This document shows positions 3,103 through 19,871 of a DNA stretch of 33,197 nucleotides, piece by piece. How positions within the stretch are numbered: the stretch's first letter is position 1; each line of letters opens with the position of its first letter. A program made the translations under genes and the position numbers. The notes under the pieces are model-generated. The model was not told the origin of the DNA, ran no database searches, and saw only the letters and a program-made list of their open reading frames with translations. The stretch covers positions 75,512 to 108,708 of the forward strand of contig JAQUPG010000003.1 of assembly GCA_028716725.1 (NCBI GenBank), given 5' to 3'. Origin of the DNA: Patescibacteria group bacterium (lineage in GTDB: Bacteria > Patescibacteriota > Patescibacteriia > Patescibacteriales > JAQTRU01).

Positions 3103-4869
3103 ATGTCAATAGTGTTAAAAGCCGTCGGCTATAATTTAAAAAAATATAGAAAGTTAAGAAATTTATCCCAAGGAGAGTTGTCGCGGCTGTTAAATATTCA
3201 TAGATCCTATATTAGCGGTCTGGAAAATGGGACCAGAAATCCTTCTATCAGCACTTTGGATAAGATTGCGCAGGTCCTGAGGGTTGATTTGACTAAAATT
3301 GTCGCCTGTTTCCCCACGCAGAAGTATAATTGGGCAGAAATTTATAAAGAAAGAGATGCTTACTTATTTCCCTTTTATCTCTATGCCCGGCCTTGGGGGT
3401 GCCGGATAAAAGAGATTATGGGTTATAACTTAAATCCCATAGTCTTAATTTTTTCAGACAAAGGAGTAGAGTTTTACGCTGACAAAGAAAAATATGTTGA
3501 GTTAGGAAAGGTTATCTTTGAAAAATTTTTGTCGGAATCGTTTTACAAAAATTTTTGCCGAAAAGTTGAATATTATTTCCGCCAGGTTGAAAAAAAGTCA
3601 AGTGAGTTAGAGAAAATAAATCAGGCCAAACTAACAAGCGGCCAATTGCTTAAGGAGATAGAGAATTTGACTTCCTTAATAGAGGAGTTAAATAAGTGGG
3701 GCCAATTAGTAAGTATTATGGAGTATGGCCCCAATAACATATTAACAGAAGGATTAATAGAGATATTAAAAAAGGCGAATAAAAAATATAAGCTTGAGAG
3801 AAATATTGTTGAAGACTCCAGCATCCTTTCTTCTCCTCTCTCTCCCACTTTTTTAGGTAGACAAAAGAAGGAATTATTAGAGATTACCGAAAAAATAAAA
3901 TTAAATCCCGAATTAGAAGATGTTTTTGCTAAAAAAGAGGCAGGAGCTATAAGAGAAAAATTAGCCAAAGATAAGAGATATAAAGAGATTTTTAGACAGA
4001 TAGAAAAACATAGAGAGCGATATAGCTGGGTTAATTATGGCTATAAGGGTCCGGCGTGGAATTTAGAAAATTTTATTGAGGAAATAAAAACCCTTTTAGA
4101 AAAATATAGTTTGCTAGAGTTGAAAAAAGAAATAAAAAACAGACAGGATTATTTTGAGCTATTGACCGAAAAACAGAAAGACCTTGAAAAGCAATACCGC
4201 TTGGACCAGTATTGGAGAAAAAGGTTTAAGATTGTCAGGGAGCAGACTTTCTGGAAAGAATTAAGGAAAGAAATCGCTTTTTATGCTTTTTTTGTGATTG
4301 AATCCCTGCATCAGGAGATTGCCCGGCGATTATTTATCTCTACAGATGATTTGCACTATTTATTGCCGGCTGAATATAAAAAATTAGAAAAGGATAAAAA
4401 GGAGATGGTAGCTATTAGCCGGGCCAGAAAGAAACTTTGCGTCTATTTCTTAGACAAAGATAAAGATACAGTTTTAATTGAAGAAAAAGCTAGGGAATTA
4501 TACAATGGCATTTCCATTGAAAAGCAGTTGGAAGCGGCTGATGAAATAAAAGGCAGTTGTGCTTGCCCGGGGATGGGCAGAGGCGCAGTAAAAATCATTA
4601 TGGGGGAAACCCATTTAGCTAAAATGAAAGAAAGAGATGTTTTAGTTTCTTTTTCCACTAATCCGCAGATGGTGCCAGCCATGAAAAAAGCCTCGGCTAT
4701 TGTTACTGATGTCGGAGGAGTGACTTCGCATGCGGCTATTGTCTCTCGCGAACTTAACATTCCTTGTGTGGTTGGCGCTAAAATTGCAACTCAGATATTA
4801 AAAGACGGGGATGAAGTGGAGGTTGACGCGACTAAGGGAATAGTAAGGATAATAAAAAGGGTCGGATAA
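3103..4869 (+). CDS. XRE-type HTH protein fused to a phosphohistidine swivel domain
   Basis: Residues 8-60 form a Cro/CI-type helix-turn-helix (YRKLRNLSQGELSRLLNIHR, YISGLENGTRNPSISTLDKI). The middle (about 70-480) is a mostly helical domain shared by the next four long paralogs, with H303 in HRERYSWVNYGYKGP and EIARRLF at 405-411. Residues about 490-585 form the mobile swivel domain of PEP-utilising enzymes: GMGRGAVKII, then VGGVTSHAAIVSRELNIPCV with the phospho-acceptor His-543, then DGDEVEVDATKGIVRIIK. There is no ATP-grasp domain and no PEP-binding barrel. PEP synthase, PPDK and rifampicin phosphotransferase use this His to carry phosphate. I infer a regulator whose DNA binding may respond to His phosphorylation. 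First gene of the array. Confidence 0.85.
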   Translation: MSIVLKAVGYNLKKYRKLRNLSQGELSRLLNIHRSYISGLENGTRNPSISTLDKIAQVLRVDLTKIVACFPTQKYNWAEIYKERDAYLFPFYLYARPWGCRIKEIMGYNLNPIVLIFSDKGVEFYADKEKYVELGKVIFEKFLSESFYKNFCRKVEYYFRQVEKKSSELEKINQAKLTSGQLLKEIENLTSLIEELNKWGQLVSIMEYGPNNILTEGLIEILKKANKKYKLERNIVEDSSILSSPLSPTFLGRQKKELLEITEKIKLNPELEDVFAKKEAGAIREKLAKDKRYKEIFRQIEKHRERYSWVNYGYKGPAWNLENFIEEIKTLLEKYSLLELKKEIKNRQDYFELLTEKQKDLEKQYRLDQYWRKRFKIVREQTFWKELRKEIAFYAFFVIESLHQEIARRLFISTDDLHYLLPAEYKKLEKDKKEMVAISRARKKLCVYFLDKDKDTVLIEEKARELYNGISIEKQLEAADEIKGSCACPGMGRGAVKIIMGETHLAKMKERDVLVSFSTNPQMVPAMKKASAIVTDVGGVTSHAAIVSRELNIPCVVGAKIATQILKDGDEVEVDATKGIVRIIKRVG

Positions 4870-4876
4870 TTAATTA

Positions 4877-4905
4877 TTGACAAATTTTTTTGCCTATTAT
4901 ATTGT
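4877..4905 (+). promoter_or_regulatory. Possible promoter upstream of the GIY-YIG gene
   Basis: -35 TTGACA (4877-4882) is followed after 17 bases by TATTGT (4900-4905). The -10 is poor, but the -35 is perfect and the box overlaps the tandem repeats at 4901-4939. It could serve the downstream swivel genes. Confidence 0.45.
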
Positions 4906-4939
4906 TTAATAGACAAATATTATTGTTTATCAAACAAAA
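4901..4939 (+). promoter_or_regulatory. Two operator-like repeats 21 bp apart
   Basis: ATTGTTTAATAGACAAAT (4901-4918) and ATTGTTTATCAAACAAAA (4922-4939) share the pattern ATTGTTTA-n4-ACAAA and have TTGT/ACAA dyad symmetry. Their 21-bp period puts them on the same helix face. They overlap the -10 region of a candidate promoter, as expected for a repressor site. Confidence 0.5.
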
Positions 4940-4942
4940 TAT

Positions 4943-5224
4943 ATGAATCCCGTTAGAAATTTAGCAAAGAGTAATTGGTATGTCTATGTCTTAGAAAGTT
5001 TAAAGGATAAATTCTGGTATACTGGTTGCACAAATAATCTAATTAAAAGATTGAAAGATCATAATAATGGTGAAGTATATGCCACTAAGTGCAGAAGACC
5101 GTTTATTTTAATATATTATGAAGTTTCCCGCAACAAGTATGATGCTTTTGCCAGAGAAAAATATCTAAAGAGCGGCATGGGCAAAAGATACTTAAAAAAT
5201 AGGTTAAAATATTATTATAAATAA
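4943..5224 (+). CDS. Small GIY-YIG nuclease domain protein
   Basis: The 93-residue protein is a single GIY-YIG domain: the variant motif YVYVLES / WYTGCTNN, the catalytic Arg in LIKRLKDHN, and the Glu in FAREKYLKSG. The family is UvrC-like and cuts DNA; stand-alone copies of this size are common and their function is unclear. The first residues, MNPVRNLAKSN, are encoded by the left arm of a perfect 16-bp inverted repeat whose right arm lies just past the stop codon. The gene interrupts the swivel array and looks like an inserted cassette together with its repeats. Confidence 0.85.
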   Translation: MNPVRNLAKSNWYVYVLESLKDKFWYTGCTNNLIKRLKDHNNGEVYATKCRRPFILIYYEVSRNKYDAFAREKYLKSGMGKRYLKNRLKYYYK

Positions 5225-5243
5225 TTAAAATTTCTAACGGGAT
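4947..5243. repeat. Perfect 16-bp inverted repeat bracketing the GIY-YIG gene
   Basis: ATCCCGTTAGAAATTT (4947-4962) and its exact complement AAATTTCTAACGGGAT (5228-5243) enclose almost the whole nuclease gene. The left arm encodes its residues 2-7; the right arm overlaps the first two bases of the next gene's ATG at 5242. A related CCCCGTTAGAGAT palindrome is at 32102-32206. Confidence 0.9.
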
Positions 5244-7119
5244 GAAAAACCTATTTAAATCCAAAACTTCTTATGAAATTCTTGATTTATTAACGCAAAA
5301 TCAAGGAAAGAGTTTTTATTTATCGGAAATTTCTTCAAGGTTGGGCAAGGACCCCGCTAATATTACCCGGGAGCTTAATAAACTGCTCAAGGAAGAGGTA
5401 ATAAAAGTAATAAGCAAGGGCAATAAAAAATATTATGGCCTGAATTCTAATTTTAATTCCGCCAAAGAACTAATTAATTTATTTAATAAAAACAGAACCA
5501 ACGATTTTAAAAATAAGTTTGAGACGGAATGGCTTTTGGCCGAAGAATTAAAAAATACGGATCCGTTTTTTTACCAAATATTTGCCAATTGTTTTGTGGA
5601 TGAGTTCGCTTCTCCAGGCGGCCGGGCCTACAGAAAAGTCGTCTCCATCCATAAAAAATATAACCTTTGGTTTTATTATGATAAAAATGATGCGCATGAA
5701 GTGGGGGAAAATTTGGTTGATAAATTTGAAAAAAATCCGGGTTTTATGGATAGGGTGAATAAAGAAATTGTTAAGCATTCCGATAAACTCAGGCAATATA
5801 CTTCTAAACTGCCGCAGGATAACCTCGAAAAATTATCCGATAAAGAGCTCTGGAATTTATATAAAGGCCACGAAAACGCTCATACTGAGTATTACCAATG
5901 GGGCTGGATTCCGGTCGCGGCCGATATGTTTTCCAATAATTTAACTAGCCGGGGGGAAAAGATTTTAAAGAGCTTAGACGCGTCAGATAAAAATATCGGC
6001 CAGTATTTAGCGGTTTTGACCCAGCCAGTAAATTTATCCCTCCTGGCTATCGAAGAAAATGAGCTTATAAAAATAGGCATTAAAGTCCAGGAAGACAAAG
6101 AACAGCTTAATTTATTCAGGGAACTCTTCAGGAGATTCAAGGAAGAGGAGGTAAAAAAGTTTGACTTATACGCCCATAGCCCCGAATATGAAGAAAAGTT
6201 TGAAGAAAAAGTCAGGCAGTTAAAAGGCAAAATCAGGAAGGATATTTTGGATGACTTGGAAAATCATTATACCAAATATTTTTATACTAAGTTTCTTTTT
6301 ACGGAAGAACAGGGCGTTTATAGCTTCGAGCATTATTTAAAAGCTTTGGTGCGGCTGGTCAGCAATGATAATAATTTAGTTAAAACTTTTTCCGAGAAAG
6401 AAGCGAAAAGAAAAAGGGATTTAGCTGAACGGGAATTGCTGATCAAAAAATTAAAAATAGAAGGCGGGCTTCTGAAATTTTTTAATGCTTGGGGGGATTT
6501 TATGGTAACAAAAATTTACCGGCGCTATGCCCAGATTTTTGCAATTTACCGGATGGTGCCGGTGCTAACGGAAATCGGGAAGCGCCTGGGATTGAACTTG
6601 AAGGAAGTAAAGTTTATGACCAGCGAAGAAATTTATAACGGTTTATCGGGTGGCGTTTTAAATAAGGGGGAAATAAGGGGAAGAGTTAATTTTTGCGTTT
6701 ACTATACGGACAAAAATGAGCATCTTTTTTATAGTGGCGAGGAGGCAAAAAAAATAGTAAAATATATAGAGAGGGATGAGATAAAAGAAGTCTCGGAAAT
6801 AAAGGGCCAATGCGGGGCCAGGGGGTATGCCAAAGGAATAGTCAGAATCGTTAATGTGGTTAAAGATATGGAGAAAATGAAAGCGGGCGATATTTTGGTT
6901 TCTATCTCCACCCAGCCCGACCTTTTGCCGGCCATGAAAAAAGCCGCAGCCTTTATAACGGACCAGGGCGGAGTCACTTCGCATGCGGCCATTGTCGCCC
7001 GGGAAATAAATACTCCCTGCGTAATCGGCACGAAAATCGCCACCAAAGTTTTAAAAGATGGCGACGAAGTGGAGGTAGATGCGGACAAGGGAACAGTGAA
7101 GATATTAAAAAAGAATTAG
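5242..7119 (+). CDS. Winged-helix protein fused to a phosphohistidine swivel domain
   Basis: Residues 5-70 look like a winged helix-turn-helix (YEILDLLTQNQGKSFYLSEI, RLGKDPANITRELNKLLKEE, then the wing VIKVISKGNKKYYGL). The central helical region (about 90-480) is the most divergent of the family: it has H210 in GHENAHTEYYQWGWIP and TEIGKRLGLNLKEVKFMTSE. The C-terminal swivel runs from about residue 525: GYAKGIVRIV, then GGVTSHAAIVAREINTPCVI with acceptor His-581, then DGDEVEVDADKGTVKIL. At 625 residues it is the longest of the six. Its ATG lies in the right arm of the inverted repeat around the GIY-YIG gene, so the ribosome entry region may be folded away. Like the XRE gene, it pairs DNA binding with a phosphocarrier; the function is inferred. 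Confidence 0.82.
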   Translation: MKNLFKSKTSYEILDLLTQNQGKSFYLSEISSRLGKDPANITRELNKLLKEEVIKVISKGNKKYYGLNSNFNSAKELINLFNKNRTNDFKNKFETEWLLAEELKNTDPFFYQIFANCFVDEFASPGGRAYRKVVSIHKKYNLWFYYDKNDAHEVGENLVDKFEKNPGFMDRVNKEIVKHSDKLRQYTSKLPQDNLEKLSDKELWNLYKGHENAHTEYYQWGWIPVAADMFSNNLTSRGEKILKSLDASDKNIGQYLAVLTQPVNLSLLAIEENELIKIGIKVQEDKEQLNLFRELFRRFKEEEVKKFDLYAHSPEYEEKFEEKVRQLKGKIRKDILDDLENHYTKYFYTKFLFTEEQGVYSFEHYLKALVRLVSNDNNLVKTFSEKEAKRKRDLAERELLIKKLKIEGGLLKFFNAWGDFMVTKIYRRYAQIFAIYRMVPVLTEIGKRLGLNLKEVKFMTSEEIYNGLSGGVLNKGEIRGRVNFCVYYTDKNEHLFYSGEEAKKIVKYIERDEIKEVSEIKGQCGARGYAKGIVRIVNVVKDMEKMKAGDILVSISTQPDLLPAMKKAAAFITDQGGVTSHAAIVAREINTPCVIGTKIATKVLKDGDEVEVDADKGTVKILKKN

Positions 7120-7128
7120 ATTTTACCT

Positions 7129-8691
7129 ATGGTTAAGAAAAGAAAAAATAAAAAACAAACTGTTTGGTTTGTGGCGGAAAGAATCCCGGATGTAAACTAT
7201 ATTATGACCTATAATATTTTTATTGGTTATGGCAAACGTTTTAAGGAGCAAGGCTTGGGGGATTATCTGAAACAGTTATTATGGGTAATAAAGGACGGAG
7301 TTTTTAATCTTTGCTATGCGCGAGAAGAATTCGACGGGTTGGTTAAGCGTATTTTTGCCAAAGCCACGAATGATTTAGCTTGGTTAGCTAAGATAAATAA
7401 AGAAGTGGAAATTTTTGCTAGAGAATATTTAGTTTTTTCCAAATCTTTATTAAAACTTGATTTAAAAAGATTATCTAACAGGCAGTTGATAGAAAAATTT
7501 AACCAATTGCTTGAATTTCAAATTAGAAGCCATAGCTATGCTCAAGCTACAACTTGGTTAATTGATGCTGATTATCAATTATTTTCCAATTATCTTTTTA
7601 ATTATCTAAAAGAAAAAATCAGGCAGAATAAACTGAAGTTTGAGCTATCTAGTGTTTTTTCTACTATTACTACTCCCCTCTCCCCTAGTTTTGTAGAAAT
7701 TGAAAACCAGGAAAGCTTAAAGATAGCTTATGAGATTTTTAAGGATAAAGGCACTTGCCTAATTTTTAAGAAGAATGATAACGTTTCCAAAATAGAGGCG
7801 GAACTTAAAAAGCAGAAGCCCGCCCTGCTTAAAAAACTAAAAAATCACCAGAAAAAATGGTTTTGGCTCCATCATAGTTACCGCGGTCCAGTTTTAGAGC
7901 TTGATTATTTTCTGCAGGTTTGGCAGGGCCTAATTAAGGAAGGGAAAATTAGGCAGTATCTGAAAGAATCGAAAACTAAATATGAAAAGCTGAAAAAGGA
8001 GCAAAAAAATTTGTTGAAAAAATTGAAATTTGACGTAAAGCACGAAGAACTTTTTAGGCAGGCCCGCTATATTGTCTGGCTAAAAGCTTACCGGAAGGAT
8101 TGTATGTATTTTGGCGCTTATGTGGCTAACCAGTTTGTAAAAGAAATTGCTCGCCGGTTGTTTATAAGCTATAAGCAGGCGGAATTTATGACGAGGGAAG
8201 AATTCGGTCGGGCGTTGCTGGCTGGCAAATATAGCACTAAAGAGTTGGACGAGCGGCCTAAGTTTTCCGTTATGCACGGCACCTGGAATAAAGTTTACGT
8301 TTATTCCGGGAAAAAAGCGTACGATTTTTTAAAAAAGACAAAGTGGGAAAAAGAAAAAATTAAAAAAGTTGATGAGCTGACGGGCCAGACCGCCTCGCCG
8401 GGCAAAGCCCGGGGGGTAGTAAAAATTATAGAAACTATAGAAGATATGCCGAAGATGGAGTCAGGTGATATTATGTTGTCCGAGACCACTTATCCGGCTT
8501 TGGTGCCGGCCATGAAAAAAGCCGCGGCTATTGTCACTAATGTCGGCGGCTTAACTTGCCACGCCGCGATTGTGGCCCGGGAATTAAAAATCCCCTGCGT
8601 GGTCGGGACGAAAATCGCCACCAAGGTTTTAAAAGATGGGGATAAAGTAGAAGTAGATGCAAGTAAGGGGGTTGTTAAAATTTTAAAGTAA
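7129..8691 (+). CDS. Swivel-domain protein of the PEP-utiliser family (no HTH)
   Basis: This 520-residue paralog lacks a DNA-binding head and starts with a Lys-rich stretch and TVWFVAERIPDVNYIM. The shared central domain shows TTPLSPSF, H240 in HQKKWFWLHHSYRGPVLELD, and EIARRLFISYKQAEFMTREE from 339. The swivel domain follows: GKARGVVKII, GGLTCHAAIVARELKIPCVV with acceptor His-478, and DGDKVEVDASKGVVKIL at the end. It starts 9 bases after the previous stop, so the two are one operon. The N-terminal 160 residues are unlike those of its neighbours and may bind a different partner or substrate. No ATP-binding or PEP-barrel domain is present, so it cannot be a complete PEP synthase. Confidence 0.82.
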   Translation: MVKKRKNKKQTVWFVAERIPDVNYIMTYNIFIGYGKRFKEQGLGDYLKQLLWVIKDGVFNLCYAREEFDGLVKRIFAKATNDLAWLAKINKEVEIFAREYLVFSKSLLKLDLKRLSNRQLIEKFNQLLEFQIRSHSYAQATTWLIDADYQLFSNYLFNYLKEKIRQNKLKFELSSVFSTITTPLSPSFVEIENQESLKIAYEIFKDKGTCLIFKKNDNVSKIEAELKKQKPALLKKLKNHQKKWFWLHHSYRGPVLELDYFLQVWQGLIKEGKIRQYLKESKTKYEKLKKEQKNLLKKLKFDVKHEELFRQARYIVWLKAYRKDCMYFGAYVANQFVKEIARRLFISYKQAEFMTREEFGRALLAGKYSTKELDERPKFSVMHGTWNKVYVYSGKKAYDFLKKTKWEKEKIKKVDELTGQTASPGKARGVVKIIETIEDMPKMESGDIMLSETTYPALVPAMKKAAAIVTNVGGLTCHAAIVARELKIPCVVGTKIATKVLKDGDKVEVDASKGVVKILK

Positions 8692-8693
8692 TT

Positions 8694-10166
8694 ATGAAGA
8701 TTCCTTTTAATAAAAAATGGACGGTTATAGAAAAAGAAGATTATGCTAATTATCTCTTTGTCGCTTCGGCCTGGGAAAGCTTCACAATTGTGAATAAAAA
8801 ATTTGGTTTTGAAAATTGTGATTGGCTGGCTGCCGAGTATAATAATAAAGCCTGCACTTTATTTTTACCGCTTGATGTTAATCAATCTATTTCAAAAAAA
8901 TTTCTTGAAACAATTTTTTCAAGTCCCGGCTTATGGGTCAATTTGCATCGGGAGAGCATACAGTACGCAAAAAAGCTTAAGGTATTAGCGGATAATATCA
9001 GAAGAAAAGATTTCAAAAACATTCCGGCGACGGAAATTGTCAAATATATTGATAATTTTGAAAAAGTGCAGATAGAAAACCATGCAAGGCGAGGGCCGAT
9101 GTTTATGATAGAGGCAAAAGATAATTTATTTTCAAATTATTTAATTGAATATTTGAAGGAGAAAGCCACGGATTTAAAAATCAAAACCGCGGCGGCGGAA
9201 GCTTTCAGGATATTAACAACCCCGGCAGGACAGTCAGCTTTAAAAGAACAAAAAAAAGACATGATTAGGATTGCGTTATTAAGAAATAAAAAAATTCAGG
9301 AAGCCTCTCTTAAACGGCATGCGAACAAATATGAGTGGCTCGAATACGGTTTGCAGGGTCGGAAATTAAATTTTGAATATTTTAAAAATGAGCTGAAAGA
9401 GATTAAGAAAAGAGGCGTTCGGAAGCTCCAAAGCGAGTTTAGAAACGAAAAGAAAACTCTAAAATTAAAACAAGCTGAAATAATAAGCCGATTCGGGATA
9501 CATGGCATGCATCGGAAGCTGTTTGAAATTGCCCGGGATTCCACTTATGCGAAGGCCGTAAGCAAAGATGCCCAGTTTTATTCGTATTTTGCCACGGAAA
9601 ATTTATTTTTGGAAATCGGGCGGAGAATAAATTTGTCCTTGGAACAAATTAGATTTTTAACTTTCAGTGAAATAAAAAAAGCGCTTTTCGCCAAAAAAAA
9701 TTTTGGCGAGCTCGCCAACCGGCGCATGAAGTATAGTCTGCATTTTTCAAGCAAAGGGAAAACGATTTTTTTTGAAAATGGCAAAGCGAAGAGAATAAGG
9801 ACGAAATTAAAATTTGACGAAAACAGGCAAAATTTAAAAGTATTTAATTCCTTCCAGGGCAGCCCGGCTTATCAGGGCAGGGCAATAGGAAAAGTAAAGA
9901 TTATTAATACGACCCAGGAGATGATAAAAATGCATAAAGGGGATATATTAGTTTCACACATGACTAATCCGGACATTGTACCGGTAATGAAAATGGCGGC
10001 AGCGATCGTTACGGATCTGGGCGGAATCACCTGCCACGCCGCTATTGTTTCGCGCGAATTAAAAGTTCCCTGTGTAATCGGAACAAAATTTGCGACTAGG
10101 GTTTTGAAAGATGGGGATAGAATAGAAGTTGATGCGAATAAGGGGATTGTTAAGATAATTAAATAG
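8694..10166 (+). CDS. Swivel-domain protein of the PEP-utiliser family (no HTH)
   Basis: The 490-residue paralog starts two bases after the previous stop. After a distinct N-terminus (about 1-160) it has the common central domain: LTTPAGQSALKEQKK, H209 in HANKYEWLEYGLQGRKLNFE, EIGRRINLSLEQIRFLTFSE. The swivel domain has GRAIGKVKII, GGITCHAAIVSRELKVPCVI with acceptor His-448, and DGDRIEVDANKGIVKII. It shares the TCHAAIV form of the acceptor motif with the preceding gene. Role unknown; I infer that it is a phospho-acceptor or phosphotransferase subunit that needs a separate ATP-dependent kinase. Confidence 0.82.
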   Translation: MKIPFNKKWTVIEKEDYANYLFVASAWESFTIVNKKFGFENCDWLAAEYNNKACTLFLPLDVNQSISKKFLETIFSSPGLWVNLHRESIQYAKKLKVLADNIRRKDFKNIPATEIVKYIDNFEKVQIENHARRGPMFMIEAKDNLFSNYLIEYLKEKATDLKIKTAAAEAFRILTTPAGQSALKEQKKDMIRIALLRNKKIQEASLKRHANKYEWLEYGLQGRKLNFEYFKNELKEIKKRGVRKLQSEFRNEKKTLKLKQAEIISRFGIHGMHRKLFEIARDSTYAKAVSKDAQFYSYFATENLFLEIGRRINLSLEQIRFLTFSEIKKALFAKKNFGELANRRMKYSLHFSSKGKTIFFENGKAKRIRTKLKFDENRQNLKVFNSFQGSPAYQGRAIGKVKIINTTQEMIKMHKGDILVSHMTNPDIVPVMKMAAAIVTDLGGITCHAAIVSRELKVPCVIGTKFATRVLKDGDRIEVDANKGIVKIIK

Positions 10167-10175
10167 ATAAATATC

Positions 10176-10775
10176 ATGATTAAACTTATTATTTTTGATT
10201 GCTACGGTTTGGTTTTAAATGAGGGTTATCCTAACACCGCTAAAGCTTTGGCGAAAAAATTCGGCGGCCGGTGGCAGGATTACCATAAAATTTTTTATCA
10301 TAAATATTTTAATTTAGCCGCCACCAGAAAGATTACGCAAAGAGAGGCTTGGCTTAAATCAATTAAACATTTTGGCTTGCCGGTTTCCTGGCAAGAAGCA
10401 AGGGATTTACATTATAACTTAATGAAATTAGACAAGCGGGCGGTTAAATTAAATTATGAGCTCAATAAAAGAGGTTATACAACCCTGCTTCTTTCAAAAA
10501 ATACCCGCAGCCAGATGGCAGACGTAACAAAAAAATTTGGATTAAAAAAAATATTTAAAAATATTATTAATACCTGGGAACTTAATCTGCCCAAGGCGAG
10601 CAGAGGGACCTTGGATTTGGTTTTAAAAAAGTTTAAGGTAAAACTGGGAGAAGTAATTTATATAGATGATAATGAGAGTAATTTGGTTGATGGCCGGAGG
10701 ATGGGTATAAAAACCATTTTAATAAAAGATTTTGAAAAGATGAAGAAAGAATTAAATCATTATCTTTATGGATAA
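10176..10775 (+). CDS. HAD-superfamily hydrolase
   Basis: The 199 residues show all four HAD motifs: IIFDCYGLV (nucleophile Asp-8), LLLSKNT (Ser-107), Lys-140 in LNLPKAS, and YIDDNESN (Asp-164/165). The second motif-I Asp used by phosphatases is Tyr-10; a DxYG motif is typical of the haloacid-dehalogenase branch, so phosphatase activity is not assured. The C-terminal region (GVVIYIDDNESNLVDGRRMG-like) fits YihX/epoxide-hydrolase-N-type HADs as well. It lies inside the swivel array and its 3' end overlaps the next gene by 8 bases, which implies coupled translation and a related job, perhaps acting on the same phosphorylated product or protein. Confidence 0.8.
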   Translation: MIKLIIFDCYGLVLNEGYPNTAKALAKKFGGRWQDYHKIFYHKYFNLAATRKITQREAWLKSIKHFGLPVSWQEARDLHYNLMKLDKRAVKLNYELNKRGYTTLLLSKNTRSQMADVTKKFGLKKIFKNIINTWELNLPKASRGTLDLVLKKFKVKLGEVIYIDDNESNLVDGRRMGIKTILIKDFEKMKKELNHYLYG

Positions 10776-12252
10776 AGACGATTGGTTTATAGCTTCGCAG
10801 CACTCACAATTAAGCCCGTTTCCCAATTATCTTTCTGGAGAAGGCATAACGCATGAGATGAAAAAGTTATTTGGTTTTGGCTACAGAAAGGTTTTATTTA
10901 TTTTCCGGGATAATGATTTTTGGGGTTGTTTTTTAGAAAATGACTATGAAAGAGTGGCGGCCGGTTTATTTAAAGAACTAAAAAAGAATCCTAGTCTTTT
11001 TGAAGTTTTATCAAGCCGGGAGAGAGAATTAGGAAGATGTTTTTTGGGACTTATAAAAAAATGGGCGAAATTGGATTTAGAAAAAAATAGCAACGAAAAA
11101 TTGGCGGAATTCAGCCGACAATATGCGAAAAAATATAGGGAAATCTACGCAAATTATTTTATTATCCTTTCCGTAGAGCAAATTCTGACTAAATACCTTC
11201 GCGATTTTCTCTTTAAAAAATTTAAGGATAAAAAAATAGCTTCCGATTATTTTAATAAACTGACCACTGAACCCGCGGCTATGGTTAATAAACAGGAAGA
11301 AATTGCCGCTCTAAAACTGGCCATCAAAATAAAGCAAAACAAAAAATGGATTAAAATTTTAGAATCAAAAAAATCCCGGGAGCTGATAAGAAAAGACGGG
11401 AAATTATTTCGCCTGATAAAAAATCATGAAAAAAATTGGTTTTGGTTGACTCGTGATTATGAAGGAGAAATTTTAACTTTTTTTGATTTTGTTGAACGGA
11501 TAAAAAGCCACCTTAGACTAGACCCGGCTAAAAAATTAGAAAAAATTAATCATGAATTAGCGGTTTTAGCGCGGGAAACCAAAAGGATAAAAATTAACGA
11601 CAAATATTGGAAATTTTTTAAAGCCATGCGGGACGGCATTTATCTCAAAGAGTTGAGAAAAAGCATTGTTTCCCAATCCCTTTATTATTTTGACCCGGTT
11701 TTGTCGGAAATCGCCCGCCGCGGTAAAATTAGCTTAAAGCAAGCCAGGTTTCTTCTGACCAGGGAAATCGTGGAGATGCTTTTAAAAAACAAAAATTTTT
11801 CTTCGGTTCTAAATGAACGTATTAAATTATCCCTTTATCTTGCTTCTGGCGGCACCACTAAAGTAATTTCCGGGAGGCCAGCCGAGAGGATTTTTAAAAA
11901 AATATATAAAGTCCCTAAAAATATAAAAGAATTTAAAGGCTTGCCGGTTTCTTCGGGGAAAGCTAGGGGTAGAGTAAAAATAGTAAAAGATTCGTCAGAA
12001 ATTAATAAGGTAAAGCCGGGCGATATCATTATTACGGGCCAAGCCACCCCGGCTTTTTCCAGAGCCGTAGCTATTGCGGCCGGTTTGATAGCGGAGGGCG
12101 GAACCGGGATTACTTCCCATCCCGCGACTTTGGCTCGGGAAGCTAAGATCCCTTGCGTCACTAATACGAAAATCGCGACAAAGGTTTTAAAAGACGGGGA
12201 TAGGGTGGAAATTGATGGGGACAGGGGAATTGTTAAAATTTTAAAGACATGA
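10768..12252 (+). CDS. Swivel-domain protein of the PEP-utiliser family (no HTH)
   Basis: This 494-residue paralog overlaps the HAD gene by 8 bases and the next gene by 4. Its N-terminus (MDKDDWFIASQHSQLSPFP) is again distinct. The central domain shows LTTEPAAMVNKQEE, H220 in HEKNWFWLTRDYEGEILTFF, and EIARRGKISLKQARFLLTRE. The swivel is the most altered in the acceptor loop: EGGTGITSHPATLAREAKIP instead of GGVTSHAAIVxRE, but the acceptor His-451 is kept, followed by DGDRVEIDGDRGIVKIL. The extra Gly-Thr in the loop could change partner choice. No kinase domain is present. Confidence 0.82.
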   Translation: MDKDDWFIASQHSQLSPFPNYLSGEGITHEMKKLFGFGYRKVLFIFRDNDFWGCFLENDYERVAAGLFKELKKNPSLFEVLSSRERELGRCFLGLIKKWAKLDLEKNSNEKLAEFSRQYAKKYREIYANYFIILSVEQILTKYLRDFLFKKFKDKKIASDYFNKLTTEPAAMVNKQEEIAALKLAIKIKQNKKWIKILESKKSRELIRKDGKLFRLIKNHEKNWFWLTRDYEGEILTFFDFVERIKSHLRLDPAKKLEKINHELAVLARETKRIKINDKYWKFFKAMRDGIYLKELRKSIVSQSLYYFDPVLSEIARRGKISLKQARFLLTREIVEMLLKNKNFSSVLNERIKLSLYLASGGTTKVISGRPAERIFKKIYKVPKNIKEFKGLPVSSGKARGRVKIVKDSSEINKVKPGDIIITGQATPAFSRAVAIAAGLIAEGGTGITSHPATLAREAKIPCVTNTKIATKVLKDGDRVEIDGDRGIVKILKT

Positions 12253-12596
12253 GAAAAGAATTAAAAAACAATTTTTCTAAGAAATTATCAGGCATCGTAG
12301 CAGCGCCCGGGAAAGCTAAAAGCAAAGTGAGAATTGTAAAAACCGCTAAAGATAAAAATAAAGTAGTTAAAGGCGATATTGTGGTTATGCCCGATTCGAA
12401 CATGAAATTATTGCCAACCTTGCGCAGCCAGATTGCCGGTTTTATTATTGAAAGGGGCAGTTTAACCTGCCACGTCGCGACTTTCGCCAGAGAAGCAAGA
12501 AAACCCTGCCTGGTGAACGTTAAAAATGTTATGAAGATTTTAAAAGACGGGGATGAAGTTGTGATTGATGGAGCGAAAATTTCGATTGCTGGATAA
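12249..12596 (+). CDS. Stand-alone phosphohistidine swivel domain
   Basis: The 115-residue protein is essentially only the swivel domain: AAPGKAKSKVRIVKTA, KGDIVVMPDSNMKLLP, then GSLTCHVATFAREARKPCLV with His-75 at the acceptor position, and KDGDEVVIDGAK. Its ATG overlaps the preceding stop codon in an ATGA arrangement, so the two are translationally coupled. A free swivel would be the analogue of HPr in the sugar phosphotransferase system: a small diffusible phosphocarrier. That role is inferred. It ends the tight plus-strand array. Confidence 0.8.
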   Translation: MRKELKNNFSKKLSGIVAAPGKAKSKVRIVKTAKDKNKVVKGDIVVMPDSNMKLLPTLRSQIAGFIIERGSLTCHVATFAREARKPCLVNVKNVMKILKDGDEVVIDGAKISIAG

Positions 12597-13190: not shown

Positions 13191-13751
13191 TCAGGTCGCG
13201 ATGAGAATTTCGGTGACGGTGATGTTGCCCTCGTCGTCCTGTTCGAGCATGATGCCCTCGCAGGAAGCGAGTTTGAGGGTCGCGGCGTCGGGATACCCGA
13301 AGATCTTGGCCGTCATTTCCACCAGAGGCGAATGGTGAAAGAGAAGCCCGTGCCCGTCATCCTCGATTTTCTCGAAGGCCCCTTCGGTTGCGGCTCTGAG
13401 GTCGCTCTCGACCGTCATGAGTTCGGGAGTGGAAAGGATCATGCGGAGCGCGGCGTACAGGCTTCCGGCTGTCTTGACCTTTTCCAGGAGTCCCTTGGCT
13501 TTCCAGCCGTTGAACATCTCGGAGCTGCCGAATCTTTTATCGGCCTCGTGGACGTGAGCCCTGATGCCATTTGCGCCCATGGCGCCGGCGAGAGTCTGGC
13601 CAGTTCGGCTGCAGAGAGATCCGACGAAAGCGTCGGTTATGCCTTCGGGATCGGTAACGAGAATTTCGTCCTCGAAACGTTTGAGTCCGGCCTCGCTGGC
13701 TTCATCGCCGTTCTTGTCGGTGTGTCTTCTCACCTGAAGACGTTTTGACAT
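13191..13751 (-). CDS. Histidine phosphatase superfamily protein (probable)
   Basis: The 186-residue protein shows a degenerate phosphoglycerate-mutase/SixA pattern: QVRRHTDKNGDEASEAGLKR with the RH motif at Arg-9/His-10, SLCSRTGQTLAGA resembling the SxLxRAxQTA helix, a Glu in MTVESDL, and a second His in LLFHHSPLVEM (His-139/140). Family members transfer phosphate to the first His; SixA removes phosphate from protein phosphohistidine. The start is fixed by an AAGGAG ribosome site six bases before the ATG. Base composition is clearly GC-richer than that of neighbours, which suggests transfer. Next to six phosphohistidine proteins, a role as their phosphatase is tempting but unproven. Confidence 0.6.
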   Translation of the reverse strand: MSKRLQVRRHTDKNGDEASEAGLKRFEDEILVTDPEGITDAFVGSLCSRTGQTLAGAMGANGIRAHVHEADKRFGSSEMFNGWKAKGLLEKVKTAGSLYAALRMILSTPELMTVESDLRAATEGAFEKIEDDGHGLLFHHSPLVEMTAKIFGYPDAATLKLASCEGIMLEQDDEGNITVTEILIAT

Positions 13752-14104: not shown

Positions 14105-15079
14105 ATGTCAAGTAAAAAACAAGAATTTATTAAAAATTTCTCTAATTTAAGCAAAAAAGACGTGGGAATTGCCGGTGGCAAAGGCGCTTCTTTAGGGGAA
14201 ATGACAAAAGCCGGTCTTTCTGTGCCGCCCGGGTTCGTAATTCTGGCTCCGGCCTTTGATTATTTTATGGAAAATACGCCAAAGTCTCCGGCTAACCAGA
14301 CTGGCCTGGATATAGAAGCCCAGATTTCCAAAGTTAATTATGACGACACCAATTCCATTGACCAGGCCTCAAACGTTATCCGCGATATTATGCAGGATAC
14401 AATGATTCCCGGGCCTTTAGCTCGAGAAATTACAGCCGAGTTTAAAAAGTTAAAAGCTCAATACGTGGCAGTTAGGTCTTCGGCAACGGCCGAAGATTCG
14501 TCTGTGGCTTCCTGGGCCGGAGAACTGGAAACTTATCTTAATACCGAAGAGAAAAGCTTGCTTGCTAACGTAAAAAAATGCTGGTCATCCCTTTTTACCC
14601 CGAGGGCGATTTTTTACCGTTTTGAAAAAAAATTAGTTGACCAGCAAGTCTCCGTGGCGGTTGTGGTCCAGAAAATGGTCCAGTCGGAAATTTCCGGAAT
14701 TTGCTTTACCGTCCATCCGATTACGAAAGACAGGAACCAGATGGTAATCGAAGCCGGTTATGGCCTGGGCGAAGCCATTGTTTCCGGCCAGATTACCCCG
14801 GACACTTATGTGATTGATAAGCGGGATTTTAGCTTGTCTGATATAAACGTGGCCGAGCAGGAAAAAATGCTAATCAGAAATCCGAGGGGCGGCAATGTCT
14901 GGAAAAAAGTTCCGAAAGCGGAAAAAGATAAACAAACCCTGACCGGCAAAGAGATTGTAGAGCTGGCTGAGCTTTGCGCCAAAATTGAAAAGCATTATAG
15001 GAAGCCGCAGGATATAGAGTGGGCCTTGGAAAAAGGAAAATTTTATATAACCCAGTCCCGGCCGATTACGACTTTGTAG
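14105..15079 (+). CDS. Stand-alone ATP-grasp domain of PEP synthase type
   Basis: The 324 residues correspond to the N-terminal nucleotide-binding half of PEP synthase: GGKGASLGEM (24-33), VPPGFVI (40-46), VRSSATAEDS with Arg-124, SWAGELETYLN, QKMVQSEISGICFTVHP, AGYGLGEAIVSGQITPD, DIEWALEKGKFYITQSRP to 320. In complete enzymes this domain phosphorylates the swivel His from ATP. It stops at QSRPITTL, exactly where a swivel would start, and the swivel and PEP barrel are missing. Six swivel proteins without an ATP-grasp lie in the 11 kb upstream. I infer that it is their common kinase. Alternatively it is a remnant of a ppsA that lost its 3' half to the repeat at 15148-15275. Confidence 0.85.
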   Translation: MSSKKQEFIKNFSNLSKKDVGIAGGKGASLGEMTKAGLSVPPGFVILAPAFDYFMENTPKSPANQTGLDIEAQISKVNYDDTNSIDQASNVIRDIMQDTMIPGPLAREITAEFKKLKAQYVAVRSSATAEDSSVASWAGELETYLNTEEKSLLANVKKCWSSLFTPRAIFYRFEKKLVDQQVSVAVVVQKMVQSEISGICFTVHPITKDRNQMVIEAGYGLGEAIVSGQITPDTYVIDKRDFSLSDINVAEQEKMLIRNPRGGNVWKKVPKAEKDKQTLTGKEIVELAELCAKIEKHYRKPQDIEWALEKGKFYITQSRPITTL

Positions 15080-18877: not shown

Positions 18878-19282
18878 TTATTTTACTAATTCACCTACCA
18901 ATTCTTTTAATTCCCCAGGAAGATTAACGTCGGGGTCTAATATTTGCTTTATAACATCTTCCTTATCTTTCTCGTTCAGTTTAAGCCCCGTGGTAGTATA
19001 GGGAAATATGTTAATGGCACTATCAGCTGATCTAAAGTGAGCCAACCTATCCTCTAAATTTTTTGTTGTTAATTTAACATAACAATATAATAGATTGTCT
19101 TTGATTTTGCCTGGCGTTGAGTCTCCTGCTAACCGAGTGCAAACACTTTCAAATTTTTTTGAATCCTCTTTATTTAAAATCCTTACCGCATATATAAAAT
19201 CTTCATCTGTATAAACCAAAAAGGCATATTCATTTTCGCCTTTTAAAAAAATATCTCCAAAATTTATTAACGCTGGTGCCAT
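18878..19282 (-). CDS. Unknown protein, putative toxin partner of Panacea
   Basis: I do not recognise this 134-residue protein (MAPALINFGDIFLKGENEYA to ELKELVGELVK). It has no signal peptide or membrane segment and is mixed alpha/beta: FLVYTDEDFIYAVRIL, DNLLYCYVKLTTKNLEDRLA, then an acidic helical end. The ATG lies four bases after the Panacea stop, and a terminator follows. Panacea-domain antitoxins are typically encoded beside a toxin of varied type, so the context suggests a toxin, perhaps cytoplasmic. Alternatively it is an unrelated partner. Confidence 0.55.
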   Translation of the reverse strand: MAPALINFGDIFLKGENEYAFLVYTDEDFIYAVRILNKEDSKKFESVCTRLAGDSTPGKIKDNLLYCYVKLTTKNLEDRLAHFRSADSAINIFPYTTTGLKLNEKDKEDVIKQILDPDVNLPGELKELVGELVK

Positions 19283-19286
19283 AAAG

Positions 19287-19823
19287 TTATATGCTTAGCA
19301 ATAAAGCTATCTCCTCCTCGCTGACCAGACAATCTTTATCTTTTGCCGCCAGTGTGTAAGGTATATTGTCAAGCATATTTGTACAATTCCATGGTGATTC
19401 TTTATGTGAAGCTTCTTCGATGAATTTTGTGTTTTTGTCCCCAAACCTTCTAGCCACCTGCTCCATTATTTCTAGTTGTGATTTGGAAAAATATTTTTTA
19501 TCTTTTTCACTAAATTTTCTGGCCGGAATTATTCTTTGCATTGTCGTTCCCGTTGGTGTTTCGAAACTGATAGTATCAGACAGAACTGAGTTATCTATAT
19601 CATCAATTGCCGTATTTACTAGATTTAATATTTCGGATGGAATTGGGCCATGTTCCAAATTAACATAATTATCATAAGTGATTGGAGATCCGTATCTTTT
19701 TAAATGCAAAAAGTCTAGAAAATAAAATAATTTCATTAATTTTACCTTTCCCAGATATCTAGGGTCTGTGTATGTTCCGAAAAACAAGAGTAGAGCTTTA
19801 AGTTTTGGCAATGATATTCTCAT
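19287..19823 (-). CDS. Panacea (SocA-like, DUF4065) domain antitoxin
   Basis: The core KVKLMKLFYFLDFLHLKRYG, SPITYDNYVNLEHGPIPSEI and the C-terminal FIEEASHKESPW stretch fit the Panacea/SocA domain, found in antitoxins that neutralise many kinds of toxins and in phage proteins. I chose the ATG at 19823 (178 residues, MRISLPKLKALLLFF); the longer TTG start at 19871 is rejected because that TTG is the first half of a -35 box. The leader is then only about 12 bases. It is the promoter-proximal gene with a 134-residue partner four bases behind, a layout typical of toxin-antitoxin pairs. Confidence 0.78.
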   Translation of the reverse strand: MRISLPKLKALLLFFGTYTDPRYLGKVKLMKLFYFLDFLHLKRYGSPITYDNYVNLEHGPIPSEILNLVNTAIDDIDNSVLSDTISFETPTGTTMQRIIPARKFSEKDKKYFSKSQLEIMEQVARRFGDKNTKFIEEASHKESPWNCTNMLDNIPYTLAAKDKDCLVSEEEIALLLSI

Positions 19824-19841
19824 AGTATCTTTGAACAAATC

Positions 19842-19871
19842 ATTATAGCCTAATTGAATACATATTGTCAA
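19842..19871 (-). promoter_or_regulatory. Promoter of the Panacea operon
   Basis: Minus-strand -35 TTGACA (19866-19871) and -10 TATAAT (19842-19847) are 18 bases apart. The start near 19835 leaves almost no leader before the ATG at 19823. From 19872 to 20046 I see only AT-rich sequence. Confidence 0.75.

Follow-up and report, generated by a model that had tools for sequence, protein, structure and literature searches.

Helix-turn-helix domains fused to dikinase-like swivel proteins in Patescibacteria: predicted autoregulatory enzyme-transcription factors

Introduction

HpeHI-type dikinases have a separate ATP-grasp subunit, whose partner consists of a rifampin (RIF)-binding-like domain followed by a C-terminal swivel domain with the catalytic His (PMC12167813). 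This split between an ATP-grasp protein and a RIF-binding-like/swivel partner is common to HpeHI of Rhodococcus, CreHI of Corynebacterium, the phenylphosphate synthase PpsAB of Thauera, and the locus described here, which lies in a 33,197-nucleotide stretch of a Patescibacteria genome (GCA_028716725.1, contig JAQUPG010000003.1, positions 75,512 to 108,708; hereafter the window). In the window, two proteins of 588 and 625 residues carry a helix-turn-helix (HTH) domain in front of a RIF-binding-like central domain and a C-terminal swivel, the arrangement of the two-component dikinase partner. Proteins with these two domains are called H proteins below.

Several features set the locus apart from HpeHI, CreHI and PpsAB: many H proteins accompany one stand-alone ATP-grasp subunit, some of them bear an HTH and have conserved promoter palindromes, and a histidine-phosphatase subfamily is linked to the system. 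Relative to HpeH, Thr mostly replaces Met two residues before the catalytic His. The central and swivel folds resemble those of rifampin phosphotransferase (RPH), the best match among solved structures, and the equivalent of RPH Arg666 is kept, whereas the ATP-grasp domain is mostly on a separate chain, the Glu667 position is mostly Lys or Arg, and an HTH stands in front. The split chain and an Arg-Glu motif that is not kept speak against a placement as RPH proper. With phosphoenolpyruvate (PEP) synthase, PPDK and the C-terminal swivel of pyruvate kinase, only the swivel is shared; the window proteins lack a PEP/pyruvate barrel, which speaks against PEP synthase as an assignment.

Two groups of regulators also invite comparison. 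Phosphohistidine within a DNA-binding protein would be common to these fusions and to PRD-containing regulators of the phosphotransferase system (PTS; LevR/MtlR/Mga type), but here there is no PRD, and the phosphate would come from ATP via the ATP-grasp protein. A PRD/PTS regulator was rejected, as Pfam gave no PRD match and no HPr was detected in the host genome (G000, 1.08 Mb); an initial reading of the DNA made from its letters and open reading frames (the sequence-only reading) had likewise placed the fusions apart from the PTS. Like the DNA-binding trigger enzymes PutA, BirA and NadR, the fusions join an enzyme and a DNA-binding domain in one chain, and autoregulation is expected; they differ in enzyme class and in having a covalent phospho-His intermediate as a second possible switch. 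The proteins are best placed near the RPH/HpeHI dikinases, as a new branch that bears HTH domains. The sequence-only reading knew of no such fusion for this domain, and a literature search recovered split enzymes and no HTH-bearing dikinase subunit, which is weak evidence because most subscription papers lay outside the search.

Results and Discussion

HTH domains precede an RPH-like central domain and a swivel

The central features of the window are the following:

3103-4869, + strand: XRE-H, 588 residues; XRE HTH (residues 12-65), RPH-like central domain and swivel with His543 (codon 4729-4731).
4877-4905, + strand: sigma-70-type promoter, TTGACA-17-TATTGT, before the wHTH-H transcription unit; a consensus match only, placed as in relatives.
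4902-4916, no strand: operator-like box 1, TTGTTTAATAGACAA, a palindrome overlapping the -10.
4923-4937, no strand: operator-like box 2, TTGTTTATCAAACAA, 21 bp from box 1.
5242-7119, + strand: wHTH-H of type a, 625 residues; winged helix (residues about 8-67), RPH-like central domain and swivel with His581 (codon 6982-6984).

The 588-residue protein matches Pfam HTH_3 at residues 12-65 (E 2e-18; PF01381 at 66.5 bits against a cut-off of 23), and the PEP-utilizers swivel at residues 509-579 (2e-26) lies in the same open frame. In the 625-residue protein the swivel occupies residues 547-617 (3e-25), and MarR/ArsR-type Pfam matches at the N-terminus fell under their cut-offs (best 1.7e-4). Structure prediction had been named by the sequence-only reading as a means by which its N-terminal assignments might fail. 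The AlphaFold models (mean pLDDT, the predicted local distance difference test, of 89 for the 588-residue and 91 for the 625-residue protein) gave the longer protein a textbook winged helix, in blocks of pLDDT about 88-94, for which Foldseek returned CzrA, SmtB and HlyU (TM score 0.66-0.74 on the target, root-mean-square deviation about 1.8-1.9 Å). Model and search thus agree on an ArsR/MarR-type winged-helix fold. The HTH part of the 588-residue protein was modelled with lower confidence (about 40-74), so this HTH call rests on Pfam. Both HTH assignments of the sequence-only reading are thereby borne out, as is their position ahead of shared domains, although the two proteins are only 26% identical over the central and swivel part.

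A profile of 50 family members matched RPH residues 508-878, covering central domain and swivel, at E 1e-36, and RPH from Listeria was the best solved Foldseek match for both models (7.8e-14 for the 588-residue and 6.6e-12 for the 625-residue protein). The likeness to PEP synthase is limited to the swivel, which by the family profile is closest in sequence to that enzyme. The central domain is thus a substrate-binding domain of the RPH type. Because of it, the window proteins are predicted to be H subunits of a split small-molecule dikinase of the HpeHI/PpsAB kind, and the HTH-bearing members are probably enzymes, or enzyme-derived, as well as DNA-binders.

Conservation of catalytic residues is in keeping with this assignment. 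The swivel His is retained in all 107 H proteins, including all 20 that bear an HTH, and the equivalent of Arg666, which in RPH holds the product phosphate, is found in 19/20 HTH-bearing and 70/87 other members. The complete Arg-Glu-x-x-Lys motif (666, 667, 670), retained even in distant RPH clades (PMC4844700), is absent, as the Glu position is mostly Lys or Arg. Two residues before the His, Thr stands in 20/20 HTH-bearing proteins and 74/87 others; the Met reported there for HpeH and the other homologues examined is not the rule here, and perhaps is not defining.

The fusions recur across the phylum

Named close relatives of the host include Candidatus Komeilibacteria, Falkowbacteria and metagenome-assembled genomes (MAGs) with other or unlikely labels. 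Orthologues of the 625-residue protein with the same architecture occur in at least nine genomes, and on this sequence record the fusion is not an assembly artefact. Beyond their own genus, winged-helix H proteins are present in two further families of the order (G035; G102, G095, G107, G091 and G105), in three more named MAGs (L153, L155 and L156) and in one more distantly placed member of the same phylum (G152, L160). The 588-residue gene itself was found only in G000, and the same XRE architecture is found in G018, G046 and G022. The HTH-swivel fusions are real, as the sequence-only reading had proposed, and they recur.

A tree was computed from an alignment stripped of its HTH columns, by a quick method that leaves the deep order unsure. 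Its winged-helix proteins group into two main, well-supported clades, separated by HTH-less relatives, and three more lie apart. Clade a comprises eight rows, and clade b six winged-helix rows and one cut at a contig edge; the three XRE-H proteins included fall in three separate places. To judge from this topology, the HTH has been acquired repeatedly, or gained and then lost. Similar winged helices are found on wHTH-nucleotidyltransferase proteins, which are widespread in the phylum and may have supplied the domain. Proteins of about 195 residues combining a similar winged helix with a nucleotidyltransferase domain are encoded at L072 1501-2079 and L073 1213-1785, and winged-helix matches of this kind on proteins of about that length are seen in many of the phylum's genomes. 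The wHTH-nucleotidyltransferase gene of L073 is followed on its own strand by another small open reading frame (ORF).

Paired palindromes occupy the promoters of type-a wHTH-H genes

All nine type-a promoters carry paired 15-bp palindromes of consensus TTGTYTANTARACAA, 21 bp apart (22 in one case), which overlap the -10 of a TTGACA-type promoter or closely follow it, with the start codon within about 10-20 bp in most. In the window, the box at 4902-4916 matches the consensus without mismatch and that at 4923-4937 with one. The pairs were seen first in six genomes and then in 3/3 further species examined (L153, L155 and L156). None of 2000 shuffles reached the paired-box score in eight of the nine promoters, and the fraction was 0.0005 in the ninth; these shuffles compare promoters with a consensus drawn partly from the same set, and the three hold-out species are the cleaner evidence.

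Other fusions have palindromes of their own. Three type-b genes carry ATTGTA-N5-TACAAT, and a fourth (G095) shows the symmetric change ATAGTA-N5-TACTAT. Upstream of the XRE-H genes of G018 and G046, a palindrome with fully conserved 11-bp arms, in an intergenic region 69% identical as a whole, lies in the divergent promoter shared with the phosphatase gene. When one mismatch was allowed, single type-a boxes were about as frequent in six whole genomes as a reversed control (2 against 3 in G000), so these counts do not indicate a large regulon. Because the palindromes lie over the -10/start region, between -10 and start codon, their position suggests repression rather than activation; the activator role implied by the sequence-only reading is accordingly not favoured.

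An ATP-grasp subunit and a phosphatase subfamily accompany the H proteins

Downstream of the boxes, the window continues as follows:

4943-5224, + strand: GIY-YIG ORF, 93 residues, between the operator-like boxes and wHTH-H, with inverted repeats at 4947-4960 and 5230-5243.
7129-8691, + strand: H paralogue without HTH, 520 residues, with swivel.
8694-10166, + strand: H paralogue without HTH, 490 residues, with swivel.
10176-10775, + strand: HAD-family hydrolase, 199 residues.
10768-12252, + strand: H paralogue without HTH, 494 residues, with swivel.
12249-12596, + strand: swivel-only protein, 115 residues.
13191-13751, - strand: divergent histidine-phosphatase-superfamily protein, 186 residues (RH, R, H motif), divergent to the ATP-grasp gene.
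14105-15079, + strand: stand-alone ATP-grasp (PPDK_N) subunit, 324 residues; probable kinase charging the swivels.

The sequence-only reading had mentioned neither the RPH-like central domain nor the GIY-YIG ORF, the HTH-less paralogues downstream, the stand-alone ATP-grasp gene and the paralogue expansion. The protein at 14105-15079 contains PPDK_N alone (6.8e-94) and is thus a stand-alone ATP-grasp subunit; the only other PPDK_N in G000 belongs to a complete PEP synthase. Genome-wide counts came from searches of a collection of 111 genomes. Swivel domains number 15 in G000 and up to 40 in relatives of the order (G054; 25 in G095 and 19 in G039). PPDK_N outside full PEP synthase was present in 23/26 genomes with at least four swivels against 12/85 with fewer (Fisher about 4e-12), the stand-alone counts having been read by hand from tables before the test and some genomes being incomplete drafts. 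Type-b wHTH-H genes directly adjoin the PPDK_N gene in L081, L084, L086 and L160. The one-chain organization of RPH (ATP-grasp, RIF-binding and swivel) is split in the window and occurs as single-chain forms elsewhere: G018 and G011 have proteins that join ATP-grasp and central domains to two swivels, and G019 (L049 3958-7242) encodes a single chain of 1094 residues in which a histidine-phosphatase domain precedes ATP-grasp, central and swivel domains.

In G054, a draft genome of about 1 Mb, the 40 matches to PF00391 are arranged in tandem arrays (L042, L043), possibly the largest such expansion among the genomes examined. The H arrays of G039 and G013 (L040, L044) are interspersed with several related proteins of about 280 residues, methyltransferase-like by look.

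The protein at 13191-13751 gave no Pfam match, and Pfam also failed for most of the neighbouring phosphatases, which were recognised instead through alignment and fusion. Residues R9, H10, R53 and H153 are invariant across ten aligned members, giving the subfamily the catalytic residues of SixA. All 14 strong matches in the collection (E below 1e-20) adjoin an ATP-grasp or H gene; ten of them, or close kin, are in or near the seed set, and four lie outside it (G091, G104, G095 and G098). SixA of E. coli belongs to this superfamily and removes the phosphoryl group from phosphohistidine on NPr and Ndk (PMC7948535, PMC12934123). Given that activity, a resetting role in which the histidine-phosphatase acts on the swivel phosphohistidine is plausible, in view of the linkage and the fused L049 protein. 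The HAD hydrolase has its own gene in the window, and two species of this genus encode it joined directly to a swivel (L031 7895-8818; L034 5768-6697).

A predicted enzyme-transcription factor and its alternatives

We lean towards the prediction that wHTH-H and XRE-H regulate their own genes as enzyme-transcription factors, with DNA binding that tracks the dikinase cycle. One ATP-grasp subunit (14105-15079) would charge the swivel His of several H subunits, each of which would carry its own RPH-like substrate domain. The winged-helix protein, probably as a dimer, would bind both palindromes at the -10/start region of its own transcription unit, which it would thereby repress; the monomer-dimer mixture formed by HpeH (PMC12167813) fits a palindrome-binding regulator. 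The charged swivel would dock on the substrate domain, and docking or substrate binding would alter the N-terminal HTH, so that retention on DNA would depend on where the protein stands in the cycle, with substrate bound or with a phosphorylated, docked swivel His. The histidine-phosphatase and HAD proteins may reset the phosphoryl state or act on a phosphorylated product. The sequence-only reading had proposed that the fusion connects His phosphorylation directly to promoter control. The invariant His of the HTH-bearing proteins, the ATP-grasp gene in the cluster and the conserved palindromes support this in part; phospho-His rather than substrate as the signal, like the effect on the promoter, is a prediction from sequence, as are binding to the boxes, repression, a small-molecule substrate and the target of the phosphatase.

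Several observations weigh against this prediction. For the 588-residue XRE-H of G000, a search for a conserved operator found only a short, unconserved palindrome upstream, and the gene has no orthologue in the two relatives of its genus. The single clue that wHTH-H would bind the boxes is their position before its gene, and operator-like conservation likely points to a DNA-binding target, not to a signal. Since Lys or Arg mostly takes the place of Glu667, catalysis may differ or be reduced in H proteins. HpeH did not form a stable complex with HpeI (PMC12167813), so it cannot be presumed that charging and DNA binding are tightly coupled.

As to the signal itself, we tentatively propose a new type of phosphohistidine-gated transcription factor: the ATP-grasp protein (ATP to AMP and Pi) would phosphorylate the swivel His, the charged or substrate-docked state would leave the paired operators, and the SixA-like phosphatase would reset it. 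If true, phosphohistidine gating would be a form of signal transduction that belongs neither to the PTS nor to the His-Asp two-component systems, in bacteria without detectable HPr. The fusions could instead be trigger enzymes that sense substrate only, a small molecule on the RPH-like domain releasing the protein from DNA while phospho-His stays purely catalytic. Autoregulation by the ligand-bound enzymes PutA, BirA and NadR is established, the RPH-like substrate domain is present, and only local boxes were found; we nevertheless think this unlikely, since type-b wHTH-H is linked to the very gene for the ATP-grasp protein and the His is invariant even in the HTH-bearing proteins, though a sensor of ligand alone could do without it. 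At the opposite extreme stands a pure phospho-relay in which no small molecule is phosphorylated: the ATP-grasp protein would be a histidine kinase, the swivels receivers, the SixA-like protein the phosphatase and the HTH-bearing proteins the output. One kinase candidate and many receivers in G000, the linked phosphatase subfamily, the lack of HPr there, and the action of SixA on phosphohistidine of NPr and Ndk (PMC7948535, PMC12934123) would all suit such a relay. Most H proteins, however, lack an output domain and yet retain both the RPH-like domain and the Arg that binds phosphate, and the RPH/HpeH precedent is enzymatic, making a relay quite improbable.

We give little credence to a passive HTH, serving autoregulation or anchoring unconnected with the dikinase cycle. 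The XRE fusions are scattered and unrelated, as this would have it, and the winged helix is like that of the common wHTH-nucleotidyltransferase proteins of the phylum, but the same protein class has been fused repeatedly, different genera have kept the paired promoter palindromes, and the catalytic His is likewise conserved. That there is no real fusion, or that the N-terminal regions are not HTH domains, is hardly credible: the 588-residue gene does occur in one genome only, with its HTH modelled at low confidence, but HTH_3 scores above its cut-off, the winged-helix fusion appears in many independent assemblies, and its model matches solved repressors, so that for the 625-residue protein such an artefact is already contradicted.

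Taken as predicted enzyme-transcription factors, the fusions suggest that Patescibacteria, a group with tiny, host-dependent members whose gene regulation is poorly understood, have more than once made a means of gene control out of ordinary phosphotransfer chemistry from metabolism. A large protein expansion, nearly unannotated, also emerges from the analysis, with one candidate kinase for each system, and the two palindromes 21 bp apart provide a concrete candidate DNA target that can be approached in vitro without culturing the organism.

Other searches and features of the window

A defence role found no support in PADLOC, where only the HTH parts scored well, beside a weak AriA match (2e-4) for the 494-residue paralogue. 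The plasmid and phage collections held no relative covering 80% of the query, their matches being mainly PEP-synthase swivels, and PHROGs returned HTH and kinase swivel matches only.

In both G000 and G001, the GIY-YIG ORF with its 14-bp inverted repeats sits between the boxes and the wHTH-H gene, and ORF and repeats look like a small mobile cassette put in between promoter boxes and gene. The repeats flanking it in the window (4943-5243) read ATCCCGTTAGAAAT and ATTTCTAACGGGAT; further copies are present in G001, and none in G002. Elsewhere in the window, 19287-19871 (- strand) encodes a SocA/Panacea-domain protein (PF13274, 1.8e-20), a class of proteins that are often antitoxins, and a small ORF at 18878-19282 neighbours its gene.

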